Shown: in pieces, positions 5,552 to 20,464 of the stretch
Numbering within the stretch: the first letter of the stretch is position 1
Layout of the letters: each line of letters opens with the position of its first letter
From: Actinomycetes bacterium
GTDB lineage: Bacteria > Actinomycetota > Actinomycetes > JACCUZ01
DNA: 41,000 nucleotides
Direction: 5' to 3'
NCBI GenBank assembly: GCA_035489715.1
Contig: DATHAP010000119.1
Coordinates: 1 to 41,000 of the forward strand
The notes under the pieces: model-generated
What the model was told of the DNA's origin: nothing
The model's database searches: none
The model's input: the letters and a program-made list of their open reading frames with translations, nothing else
Made by a program: the position numbers and the translations under genes

Positions 5552-5673
5552 CGTGGTCTCCGGGTCAGGGTCGGTGCGAGAGCGTTGCTGCATATGCGAG
5601 AAGTGACCCTGCGGGCCTGCCGAACTCATCGGTCCGGCCGGACCGAGCAGTGCTGGCGGTGCCGTCGGTGCTG

Positions 5674-6690
5674 TCAGGCGTCGAGGTGCAGCGGCAGGCC
5701 GAACATCGGGTAGGAGGACGCGACGTCGAGGAAGAAGACGACGCCGCGCAGCCGCTGACCGTCAGGGTCGACGTCGAGCACCTGCAGCGACCAGGCGGAG
5801 AACCCGCCCTCGGGGTCGGGCTTGTACTGCGCGAAGGCCGGCGACCCGTTGGCCTGGACGGGCACCAGCTTGGATCCGTCGCAGCCGATGCCGGGGCCGA
5901 GGCACCACTCGACGATGTCGTCGTGGGTCTGCAGCCACAGGTCGAACGGCGGCATCGACCACGACGCGTCCTCCGCGAGCAGCGCGGTGAGCCGGTCCAT
6001 GTCGTAGGCCTCGAACGCCTCGACGTAGCGCGCGACGAGCGCCTGCTCGTCGGCGTCGAGCGGCCGCTTCTCCGTGTGGGGGTCGCCGCTGCTGGCCAGG
6101 GTCGCGCGGGCTCGTTGCAGGGCGGAGTTGACCGACGGGACGCTGGTGCCCAGCAGCTCGGCGACCTCGGCGGCCGGCCAGGCCAGCACCTCGCGAAGGA
6201 TCAGGACGGCACGCTGGTTGGGTGGCAGCAGCTGCAGGGTCGTGATGAAGGCCAGGCGCACGGTGTCGCGGAGCTCGGCGATCTCCGCCGGGTCGGCCGC
6301 GGACGGCACGACGCGGGCGTCAGGGACCGGCTGCAGCCAGACCGCTTCCGGCATCGGGGCGGGCAGCCCGTCCGCCGCGGGGCGGGCCGGACCCATGTCC
6401 ATCGGCAGGGCCCGTCGCTGGCGGCCGTCGAGCATGTCGAAGCAGACGTTGGTCGCGATCTTGTACAGCCACGAGCGCAGCGAGGAGCGCCCCTCGAAAC
6501 GCTCGGCCGCCTTCCAGGCGCGGACCAGCGTGTCCTGCACCGCGTCCTCGGCCTCGAAGGCCGAGCCGAGCATCCGGTAGCAGTAGCCGGTCAGCTCGAC
6601 CCGGTGGTTCTCGAGCGTCGCGTCGAGGTTTTTCAGCAGGGCTGGGCCCACCGGCGTGCTCTCCGGCGCCCCCGTCTCTGGAGTCGTCAC
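5674..6690 (-). CDS. ECF sigma factor, SigG-like with SnoaL-like C-terminal domain
   Basis: Extracytoplasmic-function sigma factor of about 338 residues, matching the TIGR02960/SigG-like type. Region 2 holds ELTGYCYRMLGSAFEAEDAVQ and the RSSLRSWLYKIATNVCFD core-binding/-10 segment. Region 4 holds LPPNQRAVLILREVLAW, AAEVAELLGTSVPSVNSAL and the -35 recognition helix. The last 120 residues form a SnoaL-like domain (YVEAFEAYDMDRLTALLAED, then MPPFDLWLQ and FAQYKPD) that in related ECF groups modulates activity, so no separate anti-sigma gene is expected. I chose the GTG at 6690 because TATGGT stands seven bases upstream with no Shine-Dalgarno. An ATG at 6702 is the alternative. A paralogue lies at 12229-13266. 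Target genes are unknown; the MFS gene downstream is a candidate. Confidence 0.87.
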   Translation of the reverse strand: MTTPETGAPESTPVGPALLKNLDATLENHRVELTGYCYRMLGSAFEAEDAVQDTLVRAWKAAERFEGRSSLRSWLYKIATNVCFDMLDGRQRRALPMDMGPARPAADGLPAPMPEAVWLQPVPDARVVPSAADPAEIAELRDTVRLAFITTLQLLPPNQRAVLILREVLAWPAAEVAELLGTSVPSVNSALQRARATLASSGDPHTEKRPLDADEQALVARYVEAFEAYDMDRLTALLAEDASWSMPPFDLWLQTHDDIVEWCLGPGIGCDGSKLVPVQANGSPAFAQYKPDPEGGFSAWSLQVLDVDPDGQRLRGVVFFLDVASSYPMFGLPLHLDA

Positions 6691-6697
6691 GCCCGCC

Positions 6698-6703
6698 ACC
6701 ATA
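6698..6703 (-). promoter_or_regulatory. -10 element for leaderless SigG-like gene
   Basis: TATGGT lies seven bases before the GTG at 6690 on the minus strand. It is the best match in the window to a leaderless TANNNT box and decides the start chosen for this sigma factor. Confidence 0.45.
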
Positions 6704-6762
6704 GGCCCGCCGGGCGACAGTGCGGCCACCGAGTATGTGCCCGGTCCGTCCCGGCGGCCGCG

Positions 6763-7407
6763 TCACGCGGCGACGTGCCGCCCGACCCACTCCGCGAGCG
6801 GGCGGACCGCCCGCCAGGCGTCACGTACCTCGTCCGCCGCGCGTGGCGTCGCCAGCCAGTCCGGCGCGCCGAACCGGCGAAAGACCATCAGGGAGCGGGC
6901 CCGCATCAGCTCGAGGCGGGGATGGTCGGCCGGCACCCCGCGCGGCCTGGTGGCGACCCGGTCGCCCTCGACGTCGAAGCCCGCTGCCTGGAGCCCCGCG
7001 ACCAGCCGCTGCAGCTCGCTGCCGACGGCCAGGGAGTCGACGGAGGCCCGGTAGCGCGCGATCTCGTCGGTGCCGTGCGAGCGCCAGCCGCCGCCGGCGA
7101 GCAGGCCCTCGGCGTCGACCTGGACGTAGAACCCGACACCGACGGTGTCCTCGCTGACCGGGACCAGCGCGCCCTGGTGGGTCTTGTACGGCGTCTTGTC
7201 CTTGCTGAAGCGCACGTCCCGGTTGGGCCGGAACATCTTGGCCGGGCCGAACTCGTCCTCGAGCCGGGCCAGCAGCGCGCGCATCGGGTCGCGGACCTCC
7301 GCCTCCCAGTCCGGCTTGTGCCGAGCCCAGTACTCCCGGCTGTTGTCCGCCTCCAGGCCGGCGTAGAGCTCGAGCGCGCGGTCGGAGAAGCCGGCGAAGC
7401 TGCCCAT
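6763..7407 (-). CDS. DUF2461 family protein
   Basis: Conserved protein of 214 residues of the DUF2461/TIGR02453 family, whose function is not known. Recognisable features are the N-terminal GFSDRALELYAGLEADNSREYW (the F..L..N..REWF-like signature), NRDVRFSKDKTPYKTHQGAL in the middle (the conserved RFSxDKxPYK motif) and a YVQVDAEGLLAGGGWR strand. Its length is normal for the family. The ATG at 7407 lacks a good Shine-Dalgarno; CAGGGT seven bases upstream may be a variant leaderless -10. It is divergent from the GNAT gene at 7540 and 72 bases upstream of the sigma factor on the same strand. Confidence 0.85.
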   Translation of the reverse strand: MGSFAGFSDRALELYAGLEADNSREYWARHKPDWEAEVRDPMRALLARLEDEFGPAKMFRPNRDVRFSKDKTPYKTHQGALVPVSEDTVGVGFYVQVDAEGLLAGGGWRSHGTDEIARYRASVDSLAVGSELQRLVAGLQAAGFDVEGDRVATRPRGVPADHPRLELMRARSLMVFRRFGAPDWLATPRAADEVRDAWRAVRPLAEWVGRHVAA

Positions 7408-7539
7408 GCGCACGACCCTGTCACGGCTGCGAGAAAGCGGTGGACGCGGCCGGTGGCGACGGCGATGGTCGGGGCGAGCCGCTGCCGCTGGGAGCGGCCC
7501 GCGGGACTGAGGGGCGGGACCTGAGGGAACGGAGCCGCG

Positions 7540-8451
7540 ATGACCTTCGACGTCCGGCCGATGGCCGACGCGGACCGCCCCGCTGTCGCCCGGCTGCTGG
7601 CCGAGACCACCCGCCAGTCCCCCGCCGGGGCCCGGCGGATCCTGGGGTACCTCGACCGGGTGACCCTGGTCCACCTGGTCGCGGTCGTCGACGGTCAGGT
7701 CGTCGGGCGCTCCGGCGTCGCCCGGCCGCCGATGCTGCCGGAGGGCACGGTCGCCCTCGGCGTCGGCGTCACCGCGCCGTCCCGCGGCCGGGGCGTGGGC
7801 GCGGCGCTGTTCGACCACGCGGCACGTGGCGTCCCGCCCGGCACCGGACGGGTCATGGGCTTCTCCGACGACCGGGACGACGCGGCCGTCCTCCCCTGGC
7901 TGGCCCGACGGCACTTCGAGGCGTTCCAGCACTCGATCGCCAGCGAGCTGGACCTGACCTGCTGGCAGCCGGACGCCCCGGCGCCGGCCGACGTCACCGT
8001 CCGGGTGGTCGACCCGCAGTCGACCCGCGACGACGAGGCGGTGGCCCGGCTGTACGTCGACAGCGACACCTCGCCGGAGGCCGACGAGATCGGCGAGACG
8101 ACCTGGTCGACCCAGCTCGACGCGGCGGCTGCGGGCGGGACGGGAGGCCGGCTGGTCCTGCTGGACGTGGCCGGGGTGCCGGTGGCCATGTCCCTGGCCC
8201 AGCAGGAGTCGGACACCGACTGGGAGGTGCACTACACGGGCGTGCACCCGTCGGCGCGCGGCCGCGGCCTGGCCAGGGTCGCGAAGGCCGCGCTGCACAA
8301 CGACCTGGTGCGGCTCGGCGCCACCCGCCTGGAGACGTACAACGAGGCGGGCAACGCCGGCATCCGGCACGTCAACGCCACGCTCGGCTACGTGCGGGTC
8401 AAGGGCGCACGGCGGCACCGGCGTGATCTGGCCGCGCACCCCCTCGCCTGA
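7540..8451 (+). CDS. Tandem GNAT acetyltransferase
   Basis: Cytosolic protein of 303 residues with two GNAT domains. The N-terminal copy (about 1-145) keeps the acetyl-CoA pyrophosphate-binding segment GVTAPSRGRGVGAALFDHA. The C-terminal copy (about 155-300) keeps GVHPSARGRGLARVAKAALH and ETYNEAGNAGIRHVNATLGY, a full motif A plus the N...N..M/I...LGY motif B. Such double-GNAT proteins are common in actinomycetes and resemble mycothiol synthase-like and antibiotic-modifying members. The substrate cannot be told. The ATG is preceded by a GGAG about six bases upstream. Confidence 0.85.
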   Translation: MTFDVRPMADADRPAVARLLAETTRQSPAGARRILGYLDRVTLVHLVAVVDGQVVGRSGVARPPMLPEGTVALGVGVTAPSRGRGVGAALFDHAARGVPPGTGRVMGFSDDRDDAAVLPWLARRHFEAFQHSIASELDLTCWQPDAPAPADVTVRVVDPQSTRDDEAVARLYVDSDTSPEADEIGETTWSTQLDAAAAGGTGGRLVLLDVAGVPVAMSLAQQESDTDWEVHYTGVHPSARGRGLARVAKAALHNDLVRLGATRLETYNEAGNAGIRHVNATLGYVRVKGARRHRRDLAAHPLA

Positions 8452-13330: not shown

Positions 13331-15031
13331 TCAGAACGGCGGAACGTCGGGAACGTCGGCGAGGTCGACGAGGTCGGCGAGGTCGGCGAGGTCGATCCGC
13401 TCGAGGACGGGTTCGACCGGGATGCGGTAGCTGCGCCCGGAGGGGTAGGTGATGCGCAGGTCTCCGGGGTCGCCGTGCGGGTCGGGTCGGATGGTGGTGT
13501 CGGTGAAGGTCTTGATGTCATGGTCGGGTCGGCAGCCGGCGTCGAGGTTGCCGGCCGCGGTGGGTCCGCGCGGGTAGTTGACCCGGTGGTCGATGTCGCA
13601 GCGGTCGGCGGGCATCCGGCAGCCCAGCCCCCGCCGGCAGTAGCGGTCGCGGGCGAGCACGTGGTCGAGCAGGTCCCGCGGTGGGTCGTGGGTGTCGACG
13701 GAGAGCTCGTCGAAGCGCCCGGTCCGCGGGTCGGTCAGCAGCCGGCGCCAGGTGCCCTCGCCGGCGATGCGGCGGGCGGAGTCGGCGGTGATCGGGCCGT
13801 GTCCGACCAGCTCGCCGGGCAGCTCGTCGACACCGAGCAGCGTGTCGATGCCGACCACGACCTGGATCTGGGGCCGCCGGCCCTGCCGCCTCGGCAGCCC
13901 TCGGGGCGCCCCTCGCCCGGCACGCGGCGCCGGGGACACCGCAACCGGCGTCGCAGGGTGGGCTGGGGCGGGGTCGGCGGACTCTGCCGGCACGTCGGGG
14001 TGGGTGGTGTCCTGGTCGAGGCCGCGGCGGCCGAGGTCGGCGAGCACGTCGGCACGCGCCTGGTCCAGGGTGCGGGTGTCGCCGGGTCCCTTCGACGCGA
14101 GGGCGGTGGCAGTCAGCCACGTGTAGAACCCCTCGATCGCGACCGGGTCGTCGAGCCAGGTGATGCCGCCCGCACCGTTGCTGGTCTCGAAGCGCTCGAC
14201 CGTCCGGTCCGCCTCGACCTGCCGGGCCCGCTTCTTTGCGGCGTCAGGGTCGACGGCGATGACCGCGCGGCGCAGCGAGTCGCGCAGCTGCCGGTAGGTG
14301 CGCCCGGCCGCGCCTGCCACCACCGCGGCGTCCACCCGGGCGGCTGCCGCGTCGTCGAGGGGGCGCAGCAGCTCCAGGACCATCCGGGCCTTGGGCAGGT
14401 CGAGGTCGCCGCGGGCCAGGGCCAGCCGGGTCTGCGGCACCCGCGCCAGCTCGGTGGCCTCGCTGACCCGGCGCATCGCCGAGCCCGGCGAGAGCCCCAA
14501 TGCGGCACCCAGCTCGGCGGCGGCCATCCGCTCGGCCTGCACCGCGGACTCCTTGTGGTGCGGCGCCCCGGCCGGGGTCACCCCGCGCCACCGTCCGGCC
14601 CGCGCGACGAGGGCGGCGGCAGCGTCCGCCTCGACCGACGCGGCCCATGCCTGTAGCCGGGCCGCCGCGCCCGCCAGCCCGACCACCATGTCGTCCGAGC
14701 ACGTCGCCAGGTCCACCTCGCCGGCCAACGCCGCCAGCAACACACCCGGCGCCGTCTGGTCGACCAGCCGCGCCGGCGGCCACTCCGGGCGAAACCCGTC
14801 GCCCAGGGCCGCCGCCGCGAGAGCGGCTGCCTCCCGGCCCGGGTCGGGAACCAGCGACAGCAGCACTTCCTCGGCGGAGGGCAACGGCTCCCGCGGCTCC
14901 CGAAAGGTGCCCCCGTCCGGGTCGAGCAGGCCGAGCGGGCCGCGCGGGCCGAGCGGGCCGAGCGGGTCCACGGACGGCGCGAGGCGCTCGGCCGTCGCCG
15001 CCCCCGTAGTCGTCGCCGCCGTGCGCGTCAT
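13331..15031 (-). CDS. DUF222/13E12-type HNH endonuclease-domain protein
   Basis: Protein of 566 residues of the actinobacterial 13E12/DUF222 family. The long helical DUF222 part spans about 100-400. The C-terminal HNH domain (about 455-500) shows RDRYCRRGLGC, CDIDHRVNYPRGPTAAGNL and CRPDH, with the DIDH/N/H metal site and Cys pairs intact. The family is multicopy in many actinomycetes; its role is unsettled, and mobile or DNA-repair functions have been suggested. Low-complexity repeats lie near both ends (PLGPLGPRGPLG and LADLADLVDLADVPDV). The ATG has AGGAG seven bases upstream, and a near-perfect LexA box lies 15 bases before the start, so SOS induction is likely. Mycobacterial 13E12 genes are known to be LexA-controlled. 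Confidence 0.88.
   Translation of the reverse strand: MTRTAATTTGAATAERLAPSVDPLGPLGPRGPLGLLDPDGGTFREPREPLPSAEEVLLSLVPDPGREAAALAAAALGDGFRPEWPPARLVDQTAPGVLLAALAGEVDLATCSDDMVVGLAGAAARLQAWAASVEADAAAALVARAGRWRGVTPAGAPHHKESAVQAERMAAAELGAALGLSPGSAMRRVSEATELARVPQTRLALARGDLDLPKARMVLELLRPLDDAAAARVDAAVVAGAAGRTYRQLRDSLRRAVIAVDPDAAKKRARQVEADRTVERFETSNGAGGITWLDDPVAIEGFYTWLTATALASKGPGDTRTLDQARADVLADLGRRGLDQDTTHPDVPAESADPAPAHPATPVAVSPAPRAGRGAPRGLPRRQGRRPQIQVVVGIDTLLGVDELPGELVGHGPITADSARRIAGEGTWRRLLTDPRTGRFDELSVDTHDPPRDLLDHVLARDRYCRRGLGCRMPADRCDIDHRVNYPRGPTAAGNLDAGCRPDHDIKTFTDTTIRPDPHGDPGDLRITYPSGRSYRIPVEPVLERIDLADLADLVDLADVPDVPPF
13355..13390. repeat. Four tandem 9-base repeats at the 3' end of the HNH gene
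   Basis: Four copies of GTCGGCGAG (one with a single change) encode the LADLADLVDLAD tail. The unit size matches the repeat tail of the MFS gene at 4053. Confidence 0.8.
14929..14964. repeat. Four tandem 9-base repeats near the 5' end of the HNH gene
   Basis: Four copies of GGCCGAGCG (one with a single change) encode the PLGPLGPRGPLG stretch just after the N-terminus. Confidence 0.75.
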
Positions 15032-17417: not shown

Positions 17418-18806
17418 TCAGCTGTCGGGATGCCGCCGCGGCAGCGACACCCGCAGCACCGTCTCGGCCGGCCGCACCAGGATGCTGATCTGGCCGCCGT
17501 GCCGGTCCACGACCACCCGTCGGGAGATGTCCAGCCCGAGCCCGGTGCCCTTGCCGACGTCCTTCGTCGTGAAGAACGGCTCGAAGGCGTGGTCGCGGGT
17601 CTCGGGCGACATGCCCGAGCCGGTGTCCCCGATCTCGATGACGACGCCGTCGCCCCCGGGCCGGGTAGACACCCGAAGGGTCCCCGTGTCGCCCATCGCG
17701 TCGAGCGCGTTTGCCATCAGGTTGGTCCACACCTGGTTGAGCTCGCCGGCGGCCGCGTCGATCCGGGGCACGTCGTCGCCGTATTCGCGGACGACGGTCA
17801 CGCCGGGCGGGACCCGGTGGGCGAGCATCGCGAGCGTGCTCTCCAGCCCCTCCGCCACGTCGATCTGCTGCATCGACCCCCGGTCCAACTGGGAGTAGCT
17901 CTTCACGTCGGCGACCAGATCGGTGATGCGCCGGGTCGAGTCCTTGACCAGGTCGAGCATGGAGGCGGTGGACAGCGTGCCCGCCACCCACTCCAGGCCG
18001 GGCTCGAGCGCGTCGCCGAGCAGGTCGTCCATCTTCTCCAGCCATGCCACGTCGACCCCGTGGGCGGCCAGCGACGGCGCGATCGCCCAGTCGCGCCCGA
18101 CACCGTGCCGGCCCATCCAGTCGATGAGCTCGTCCTCGCGGCGGGCGGTGGCCAGCGCGTCGGGCCGCGACGTCGGGCGCGGCACGGCCAGCCGCAGCTC
18201 GTCCAGCGCCTGGTACTGCTCGGCGGTCATGCCGTGCGCGGCGAGGTGGGACAGCGCGGTGAGCAGGCCGGCGCCGGTCTCGCGCAGCACGTCGGCCGCC
18301 CGGGTCGCCGCCGACGCCGGGTTGTTGATCTCGTGCGCGAGCCCGGCGGCCAGCGTGCCCAGGGCGACCAGCGACTCGCGCTGCCGGGCCACGGACTCGA
18401 AGGCACGGGCCGAGTGGAAGACGCCCTCGAGGATGTGCTCGCCGAAGGGGAACCGCTCGGTCGACCAGCGGCGCAGCGCCGTGGAAGGCACCCGGAGCAG
18501 CCGGCCGGCCGAGAGGGCGCGGGCGGTGGCGAAGTAGACGCCGTGCGCGTCCCACGCCCGGAAGCCGCCGGCCCACTGGCCGGGGTGGTCCATGGTGCCC
18601 AGCCGGGTGTCCTCCCGACCCACCTTGCGCACCAGGTCCAGCGCGCCCTCGACCAGCATCCACCAGAAGTCGGCCGGCTCGCCGTCGTGGAACACCTCGT
18701 CACCGGGGGCGAAGCCGACCTCGTCGCCCAGGTCGACCAGCTGCTGCAGCTCCTCGTCGGACGTGCCCACGAAGAGGGGCAGCGCCCGGAGGTCGGAGAG
18801 CTGCAC
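17418..18806 (-). CDS. Histidine kinase with N-terminal cyclic-nucleotide-binding domain
   Basis: Soluble sensor kinase of 462 residues. Residues 1-115 form a CNB-like fold (LRALPLFVGTSDEELQQLVD, then PGDEVFHDGEPADFWWMLVEG). The phospho-acceptor is His158 in GLAHEINNPASAA. About 110 residues separate this from KDSTRRITDLVADVKSYSQL, a long insertion inside the dimerisation region. The ATPase domain has the N box LNQVWTNLMANALDAM, the G1 box IGDTGSGM and the G2 region FFTTKDVGKGTGLGL. No membrane helix. The GTG start at 18806 is two bases after the stop of the upstream receiver/thioredoxin-reductase gene, so the pair is coupled and that protein is the natural partner. The ligand of the CNB domain is unknown. 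Confidence 0.85.
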   Translation of the reverse strand: MQLSDLRALPLFVGTSDEELQQLVDLGDEVGFAPGDEVFHDGEPADFWWMLVEGALDLVRKVGREDTRLGTMDHPGQWAGGFRAWDAHGVYFATARALSAGRLLRVPSTALRRWSTERFPFGEHILEGVFHSARAFESVARQRESLVALGTLAAGLAHEINNPASAATRAADVLRETGAGLLTALSHLAAHGMTAEQYQALDELRLAVPRPTSRPDALATARREDELIDWMGRHGVGRDWAIAPSLAAHGVDVAWLEKMDDLLGDALEPGLEWVAGTLSTASMLDLVKDSTRRITDLVADVKSYSQLDRGSMQQIDVAEGLESTLAMLAHRVPPGVTVVREYGDDVPRIDAAAGELNQVWTNLMANALDAMGDTGTLRVSTRPGGDGVVIEIGDTGSGMSPETRDHAFEPFFTTKDVGKGTGLGLDISRRVVVDRHGGQISILVRPAETVLRVSLPRRHPDS

Positions 18807-18808
18807 GG

Positions 18809-20464
18809 CTACACCGTCGCCAGGTAGCGGTGGACGAGGTAGACCGACATCGCACCCTCGCCGACGGCGGACGCGACCCGCTTCATGGAGTCGAGCCGCA
18901 CGTCACCGGCCGCGAACACGCCGGGCACGCTGGTCTCGAGCGCGAACGGGGCGCGGGCGAGCGACCACGAGCCCTTGGCGGTGGTCAGCAGGTCCTGCCC
19001 GGTGACAACGAACCCCTTGTCGTCGCGCGCGACGTCACCGCCCAGCCAGTCGGTGCGCGGCGACGCGCCGATGAAGACGAACAGCCAGGAGGCCGCCACC
19101 TCCTCCTCACGGCCGGACGCCCGGTCGGCGATCGTGACCGCCTCGAGGTGGCCGTCGCCCCGGCCCCCGACGACCTCGGTGCGCAGCCGCACCTCCACGT
19201 TGGGCGTCTCGCCGATGCGCGCCACGAGGTAGCTCGACATGGTGTCCTCGAGGCCGGTGCCGCGGACCATCATGACGACCCGCTTGGCGTAGCGGGCCAG
19301 GTTGAGCACCGCCTGGCCGGCCGAGTTGGCCGCCCCGACGACGTACACCTCGTCGCCCTCGCACTGGACCGCCTCGCTCGCGGTCGCGCCGTAGTACACG
19401 CCGCGCCCGGTGAGCTCGGCGAGCCCGGGCGCCGCGAGCCGGCGGTAGGAGACGCCGGTCGCGACCACGAGGGCCCGCGCCTCGATCTCGGCACCGTCGT
19501 CGAAGCGCACGGCGCGCACCGGCCCGCGGACCTCGAAGGACGCGACGTCGCGCGCCAGCACCATCTCGGCCCCGAACCGCGCCGCCTGCGCGACCGCGCG
19601 GTGCGCCAGGTCGGCACCGGAGAGCCCGCGGGGGAAGCCCAGGTAGTTCTCGATCGAGGCGCTCTGCCCCGCCTGTCCCCCCGGCGCCTCGCGCTCGACG
19701 ACGACGGTCCGCAGGCCCTCGGACGCGGCGTAGACGGCGGCGGCGAGCCCGGCCGGGCCGGCGCCGACGATGCACAGGTCATAGAGCGGCTGCTCGGCGC
19801 GGGTGCGCAGGCCGAGCGCGTCGGCGACCGCCGACGTCGTCGGCGAGCGCAGCGGCTCGGCGTCGGGCACCAGGACCAGCGGCAGGTCCTCGGGCTGCGC
19901 CCCGGCCAGGTCGAGCAGCCGCCGGCCCTCCTCGTCGCGGTCGATGTCCAGCCACTGGTACGGCACGTGGTTGCGGGCCAGGAAGGTCTTGACGTCGTGG
20001 CTGCGCTCGGACCAGCGGTGCCCGACGACGCGCACGTCGGCGCCCTCGTCGAGGTGGGCCTGGCGCCAGTCGTCGAGCAGGTCGTCGACGACGGGGTAGA
20101 GACGCTCGGCCGGCGGGTCCCACGGCTTGAGCAGGTAGTAGTCGAGCCCGATGTCGTTGATCGCCCTGATCGCCACGTCGGTGTCGGCGTAGGCGGTCAG
20201 CAGGAGGAACTTGGCGTCGGGCACCTGGGTTCGCGCCTGCGCCAGCATCTGGATGCCGGTCATCTCGGGCATCCGCTGGTCGCTCGCGATCAGGGCGACC
20301 GGCCGGCCCTTGAGGGTCAGCTCGGCGATCAGCTCGAGCGCCTCGGCCCCCGACGTGACCCACACGACGCGGTAGTCGGCGCCGTAGCGCGACCGGAGGT
20401 CCCGGGTGATCGCCTGGGAGACGGTCGGGTCGTCGTCGACGGTGAGGATCGTCGGCTTCGTCAT
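18809..20464 (-). CDS. Receiver domain fused to thioredoxin-reductase-like flavoprotein lacking active-site cysteines
   Basis: Protein of 551 residues with three parts. Residues 1-130 are a response-regulator receiver with the acidic cluster D10-D12, phospho-acceptor Asp62 (ASDQRMP) and Lys113 (LLKPW). Residues 142-220 look like a glutaredoxin/thioredoxin fold, but the CxxC site reads S152-E-R-S155. Residues 228-551 are a thioredoxin-reductase-type flavoprotein with the FAD loop GAGPAG (234-239), GGQAGQSASIENYLGFP, the second nucleotide site VVGAANSAGQ and GVFAAGDVR. The usual redox CATC is G359-A-T-A362. Only two cysteines are present in the whole protein, neither in a redox motif. FAD and probably NAD(P)H binding are kept; disulfide reduction is not expected. 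CxxC-less reductases of this look are known in actinomycetes, usually with CNB domains. ATG at 20464; the kinase gene follows directly. Confidence 0.87.
   Translation of the reverse strand: MTKPTILTVDDDPTVSQAITRDLRSRYGADYRVVWVTSGAEALELIAELTLKGRPVALIASDQRMPEMTGIQMLAQARTQVPDAKFLLLTAYADTDVAIRAINDIGLDYYLLKPWDPPAERLYPVVDDLLDDWRQAHLDEGADVRVVGHRWSERSHDVKTFLARNHVPYQWLDIDRDEEGRRLLDLAGAQPEDLPLVLVPDAEPLRSPTTSAVADALGLRTRAEQPLYDLCIVGAGPAGLAAAVYAASEGLRTVVVEREAPGGQAGQSASIENYLGFPRGLSGADLAHRAVAQAARFGAEMVLARDVASFEVRGPVRAVRFDDGAEIEARALVVATGVSYRRLAAPGLAELTGRGVYYGATASEAVQCEGDEVYVVGAANSAGQAVLNLARYAKRVVMMVRGTGLEDTMSSYLVARIGETPNVEVRLRTEVVGGRGDGHLEAVTIADRASGREEEVAASWLFVFIGASPRTDWLGGDVARDDKGFVVTGQDLLTTAKGSWSLARAPFALETSVPGVFAAGDVRLDSMKRVASAVGEGAMSVYLVHRYLATV

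Follow-up and report, generated by a model that had tools for sequence, protein, structure and literature searches.

A soluble histidine kinase and response regulator pair with a CxxC-less thioredoxin reductase-like output module in an Actinomycetes bacterium

Organization of the gene pair

The DNA analysed (the window) comprises 41,000 nucleotides of contig DATHAP010000119.1 from an Actinomycetes bacterium (GenBank assembly GCA_035489715.1). Two adjacent genes on its minus strand encode a response regulator (RR) and a histidine kinase (HK), in the order RR-HK. The RR gene (18809..20464; ATG at 20464, stop at 18809) specifies 551 aa and combines, according to its translation, Pfam and an AlphaFold2 model, a receiver (REC) domain, a glutaredoxin-like fold and a thioredoxin reductase (TrxR)-like FAD/NAD(P) module. 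The kinase gene (17418..18806) begins with GTG at 18806, 2 nt after the RR stop, and specifies a soluble protein of 462 aa, as judged by translation, Pfam, a structure model and hydropathy. Since the 19-residue hydropathy maxima are 0.88 (kinase) and 1.62 (RR), neither protein has a membrane helix. Translation and hydropathy thus bore out the original prediction as to the coordinates of both genes, the residue positions of SERS (152–155), GATA (359–362), Asp62 and His158, and the absence of a membrane helix from the kinase. PADLOC gave no defence-system match for the pair. Elsewhere in the window, a 566-aa open reading frame (13331..15031, minus strand) without Pfam match has a C-terminal stretch that is HNH-like by eye. 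Another such pair is present in the source genome (L097, contig C27), consisting of a kinase (5640–7106, minus strand) 43% identical to that of the window and part of an RR (7103–8008, minus strand) that runs into the contig end.

Domains of the response regulator

The REC domain (residues 1–135; 20060..20464) was matched by Response_reg over residues 6–117 (61 bits), and its acidic pocket is formed by D10/D11, D62, T90 and K113. In alignment A1 (45 rows), D10, D11, D62 (the phospho-acceptor, 20279..20281) and K113 are present in 45/45 rows and T90 in 44/45. The glutaredoxin/mycoredoxin-like domain (residues 138–226; 19787..20053) was not matched when the whole protein was searched against Pfam and was assigned by a profile search against the PDB, in which it matched mycoredoxin-1 Rv3198.1 (2lqo) with E=5e-9. 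It retains the cis-Pro loop, has lost CxxC and scores 16.9 bits with PF00462, below the gathering score of 22.9, so that it falls short of a glutaredoxin on both counts; PF00462 was matched weakly in 13 of 17 family members at E<=1. The TrxR-like module (residues 227–549; 18818..19786) was identified by Pfam (Pyr_redox_2, residues 228–537, 112 bits), by phmmer against TrxR structures (E 4e-43) and by Foldseek, using the modelled core (TrxR 5mh4, TMt 0.91). The AlphaFold2 model, built with family relatives (mean pLDDT 89), displays REC, glutaredoxin-like fold and TrxR core, and together with the Pfam and Rv3198.1 matches it confirms the domain fusion proposed earlier. The module probably binds FAD and uses NAD(P)H, as its sequence signatures and model indicate.

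None of the best-matching NCBIfam models reached its curated cut-off, with 214 bits for TIGR01292 (thioredoxin-disulfide reductase; cut-off 343) and 156 bits for TIGR03140 (AhpF; cut-off 503). A match to PHROG phrog_6397 ('ribonucleotide reductase large subunit', E 2.5e-65) is confined to the TrxR module and was set aside as misleading; the label looks wrong, or looks to refer to another part.

Loss of both CxxC pairs

At the glutaredoxin CxxC position the RR carries SERS (residues 152–155; 20000..20011), which in the profile alignment superposes exactly on CGYC of Rv3198.1, with WSxxS on WCGYC; A1 contains S152 in 38/45 rows and S or T at position 155 in 38/45. The TrxR CATC position is occupied by GATA (residues 359–362; 19379..19390), as seen from the alignment of GATAS with CATC of the source genome's own TrxR (L003). 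The redox-active CxxC at the FAD is therefore missing from the RR, and it occurs in 0 regulated relatives. Despite this loss, the FAD/NAD(P) signatures, including the FAD loop, are retained across the family. Glu364 (19373..19375), aligned with the Asp following CATC in TrxR, is invariant (45/45 rows), as are R401 (45/45) and Arg529 (18878..18880; 45/45), the latter standing where the RQ motif of TrxR has its Gln, which the CxxC-intact relatives and the source genome's TrxR keep at this position. E364 and R529 would correspond to residues that in E. coli TrxR take part in catalysis and contact the flavin. Two of the three Arg residues that contact the NADPH 2'-phosphate in TrxR appear not to be kept in the RR, so that NADH may be the electron donor, or there may be none.

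The original description of the RR as having no redox cysteines holds for both CxxC sites, and needs qualification as Cys231 and Cys368 are still present. That the RR still acts as a thioredoxin- or mycothiol-type disulfide reductase, by means of other cysteines (e.g. Cys368) or partner thiols, would be compatible with the presence of Cys368 in 64% of the relatives' rows and with the name trxB3 and polysulfide-induced transcripts (PMC9952706) of the Streptomyces coelicolor relative SCO7298. It is nevertheless very unlikely, because Cys368 has no conserved partner Cys, some family members contain one Cys or zero, and trxB3 is absent from the gene set overexpressed for H2S release. As every regulated member examined lacks both cysteine pairs, the function must be other than disulfide chemistry.

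Domains of the kinase

The N-terminal sensor domain of the kinase (residues 1–130; 18417..18806) is of the cyclic nucleotide-binding (CNB) type, with a cNMP_binding (PF00027) match at residues 32–113 (33.8 bits; gathering score 27.5). The predicted fold is thus real, but both cAMP-site signatures are gone in the window clade, in which the two phosphate-cassette residues (the Glu of GE and the Arg of PRxA) are replaced; the Chloroflexota and Acidimicrobiia kinase relatives retain GEM..L...PRxA. A cyclic-nucleotide ligand is therefore doubtful, and not supported, for the window clade and possible for the distant relatives.

The phospho-donor His158 (AHEINNP; 18333..18335) is invariant in alignment A2. 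HisKA (PF00512) matches residues 149–180 only, with 24.5 bits (Pfam cut-off 26.9), and is restricted to the first DHp helix because of an insert of ~100 residues (~181–283; 17958..18266), delimited by alignment and model. The second DHp helix follows at residues 284–310 (17877..17957), as placed by the model and by profile matches that start at 279–291, and HATPase_c at residues 355–457 (17436..17744; PF02518, E 9e-22). In the structure model (AlphaFold2 with family relatives; mean pLDDT 86), predicted helices of the insert (195–206, 217–233 and 239–248) cap an elongated hairpin. The insert matched no Pfam family and no PDB sequence, and it is conserved across phyla with the pattern DrEDeL..WL..hGV...W..Ap.L. 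The insertion flagged earlier as unusual is accordingly present, as a family-wide feature rather than a local oddity.

Distribution and phylogeny of the family

A GTDB scan recovered 79 loci in Actinomycetota, Cyanobacteriota, Chloroflexota, Bacteroidota, Pseudomonadota and Acidobacteriota. The search for REC-TrxR fusions beside CNB kinases suggested with the original prediction, combined with alignment of the CxxC positions, found 0 intact CxxC in GTDB rows spanning both sites. Since relatives from several phyla share the pair, both CxxC losses and the insert, a chance arrangement is excluded. A homologue 57–58% identical is present in six genomes from two genera of the window's class. In the tree, the 38 CxxC-less rows form a single clade (support 100/100), with CxxC-intact glutaredoxin (Grx)-TrxR fusions outside, and both pairs were therefore lost once, on the family stem; this excludes a recent local loss, the alternative raised at the outset. 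The replacement of catalytic residues might also be read as local degeneration, with the pair decaying toward a pseudogene, a notion that was rejected and is hardly credible in view of invariant columns across phyla, losses common to all relatives, open frames and the tree. The Grx(WCPDC)-TrxR(CATC) fusions of the wider sample (L113, L114 and L133–L139), in which no regulatory domain was detected, represent the intermediate form and are apparently catalytic cousins of the regulated family.

A sister branch contains the same CxxC-less core with an N-terminally fused CNB domain, and has neither receiver nor kinase. A CNB domain would thus feed the CxxC-less core either directly or by phosphate, with the core as the regulated part in both designs, which argues for the flavoprotein as a regulated output and against its being an input to the kinase. 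In Rhodococcus (L104, 3495–5230), a UBP-type zinc finger (zf-UBP) is followed by the CxxC-less core without any regulatory domain. Relatives from Pseudonocardiaceae and Streptosporangiaceae (L067, L068, L070–L072) have no same-strand kinase and share upstream genes resembling DJ-1/PfpI-type and thiamine-diphosphate enzymes.

Coupling of kinase and receiver

In a sample of 197 genomes of the phylum, 44 genomes contained the core, with 63 family matches, 27 of which adjoin a kinase of the window type on the same strand, mostly 18–57 nt downstream of the matched part. Most GTDB loci also have an adjacent kinase on the same strand at close spacing. Among the loci retrieved, the receiver residues D11, D62, T90 and K113 are all intact in 59/59 members with an adjacent kinase vs 7/20 without, the receiver being degenerate in 13/20 of the latter (p 2.9e-10, kinship ignored); the tested degenerate receivers form one clade (100/99), so that the correlation is confounded by clade. 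For this test, L091–L094 were left out as CNB-type (L085 is likewise CNB-type), and L108, which ends at the contig end, was scored intact from D62, T90 and K113. The coupling originally proposed is strengthened by these counts, and the intact receiver sites beside kinases lend indirect support to real phosphotransfer from His158 to Asp62. Among the orphan relatives without kinase are pseudo-receivers that have lost Asp62, Thr90 or Lys113 (L109, L115, L117–L129, L131 and L132). Three window-type kinases stand in tandem behind one RR at G125:C106:46915-51127 and G174:C1:1613700-1617897.

Flavin and NADH sensing has general precedent in signalling, and the flavoprotein part might accordingly be a sensor of NAD(P)H/NAD(P) or of the flavin redox state that alters phosphate flow and has no catalytic output. 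The loss of every CxxC relay and the retention of the cofactor-site signatures speak for such a sensor. The core, however, also occurs in CNB fusions without kinase, in kinase-less orphans with degenerate receivers and in the regulator-free L104, settings in which it cannot provide input to this kinase, and we regard a pure sensor as improbable.

Association with UBP-type zinc fingers

In many loci, zf-UBP genes adjoin the core. Genomes with the core carry zf-UBP in 34/44 cases, those without it in 12/153 (197 genomes; p 2.7e-19, kinship ignored). In Streptomyces fungicidicus and Tsukamurella tyrosinosolvens, the zf-UBP gene overlaps the kinase gene by 4 nt, giving RR-HK-UBP operons, whereas the window pair has no such partner gene. 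In S. angustmyceticus (L101, 180–5308), clpB, trxA, a UBP zinc finger and a CNB-TrxR-like gene lie in one row, which suggests a stress operon. The sole zf-UBP of the source genome (L096, contig C139, 1–1698, plus strand) forms, according to Pfam, the C-terminus of a membrane protein that resembles, by eye, a CPA1-type cation/proton antiporter. Being unlinked to the window pair and fused to an antiporter, it leaves the partner a proposition for the family and not for the window pair.

The module may instead have a structural or binding role in which the flavin is a prop. In its full form, this reading holds that the flavoprotein is catalytically inert and serves as a binding platform switched by phosphorylation, e.g. 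for a UBP-type zinc-finger protein, with a structural flavin. The adjacency and co-occurrence of zf-UBP genes and the joint loss of both redox centres speak for it; the invariant E364, R401 and R529 and the FAD loop suggest retained chemistry, and 10/44 core-bearing genomes lack zf-UBP. On balance, a mere platform seems unlikely.

Proposed mechanism

As originally predicted, the data support a soluble system of kinase and receiver that acts through a CxxC-less flavoprotein rather than through a transcription factor. The best explanation, to which we assign an even chance of being correct, is a stress-linked soluble TrxB-type two-component system in which phosphorylation controls a flavin/NAD(P)H module incapable of disulfide chemistry. 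The kinase would respond to an internal cue through its CNB-type domain, autophosphorylate at His158 and relay the phosphoryl group to the receiver at Asp62. The phosphorylated receiver, together with the dead glutaredoxin-like domain, may then change its position on the flavoprotein, and this movement might gate either the passage of hydride to FAD from NAD(P)H or the binding of a partner. As both CxxC relays are lost, electrons would have to pass straight from the flavin to an acceptor or partner that is not a disulfide; a UBP-type zinc-finger protein is one possibility. A physiological role tied to stress is suggested by the SCO7298 transcript data, which include induction by acid shock (PMC2631018).

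More broadly, and with slightly less confidence than an even chance would imply, the TrxB RR class and its CNB-fused sister may constitute a signalling and stress family built on a TrxR core that lost disulfide chemistry once, with CNB control exerted directly or via a kinase with a new helical domain inserted into DHp, and with a UBP zinc finger as the usual partner. If phosphorylation gates a CxxC-less flavoprotein, the system would be one of the rare cases in which a two-component pathway acts on redox metabolism instead of transcription. The value of the analysis lies in what holds for the whole family: both redox pairs were lost in its ancestor, CNB domains are used in two designs, receiver integrity correlates with the presence of the kinase, the insert in the kinase is conserved, and a zinc-finger protein is the proposed partner. 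The CNB-fused sister branch, the conserved insert and the zinc finger provide concrete handles for testing.

Comparison with known systems

Local novelty was not upheld, because REC-TrxR is already a named RR class: its occurrence in archaea has been described as 'Mycobacterium-like' (PMC5847659), and tables of RRs list 'TrxB' among their classes (PMC9953108, PMC9739842). The window pair has the features of this class, i.e. a REC domain with Asp62 fused to a Pyr_redox_2 output and an adjacent HK with a His158 box and HATPase_c, and it belongs to this widespread, almost unstudied group. The S. coelicolor pair SCO7298/SCO7297, catalogued as a TrxB-type RR-HK pair (PMC9739842), resembles it, compared by description, in that the RR carries a TrxR-type output and a classic kinase lies next to it, in RR-HK order; PMC9739842 gives no function for SCO7298 and no statement on CxxC. 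An RR class present in several phyla is named for an activity impossible for its members, and SCO7298 is already counted as a thioredoxin reductase in transcript papers (PMC9952706, PMC2631018). In RefSeq, relatives go under the names 'FAD-dependent oxidoreductase' and 'ATP-binding protein'; literature searches found no paper on the fusion under RefSeq-style names or on a UBP zinc finger with TrxR and no biochemistry for any family member, and a Deinococcus thiol-reductase review and Iyer 2006 contained nothing relevant. As far as we could find, new aspects are the universal CxxC loss in the regulated family and its single origin, the CNB-fused sister design, receiver integrity that tracks the kinase, the conserved kinase insert and the co-occurrence with zf-UBP, often in an operon.

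A relative on a Streptomyces plasmid is 58% identical to the window RR and has an adjacent kinase. The CNB-domain thioredoxin-disulfide reductase-like proteins (RefSeq name) of the sister branch share the Grx-TrxR core and the loss of both CxxC pairs, but have the CNB domain fused directly, without receiver or kinase. The Grx(WCPDC)-TrxR(CATC) fusions, the nearest CxxC-intact outgroup, have the same two-domain core but retain both redox pairs, with no regulatory domain found. AhpF (4o5q, 1hyu), the best whole-length Foldseek match by E-value, likewise joins a redoxin-fold N-terminal part to a TrxR core, but each of its two parts has a functional CxxC and its substrate is AhpC, whereas the window RR has no CxxC. 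TrxR-type ferredoxin-NADP reductases (YumC type) demonstrate that the TrxR fold can be functional without CxxC; compared with these, the window RR shows a weaker sequence match (5xhu, E 7.5e-12), is fused to a REC domain and ends at residue 551.
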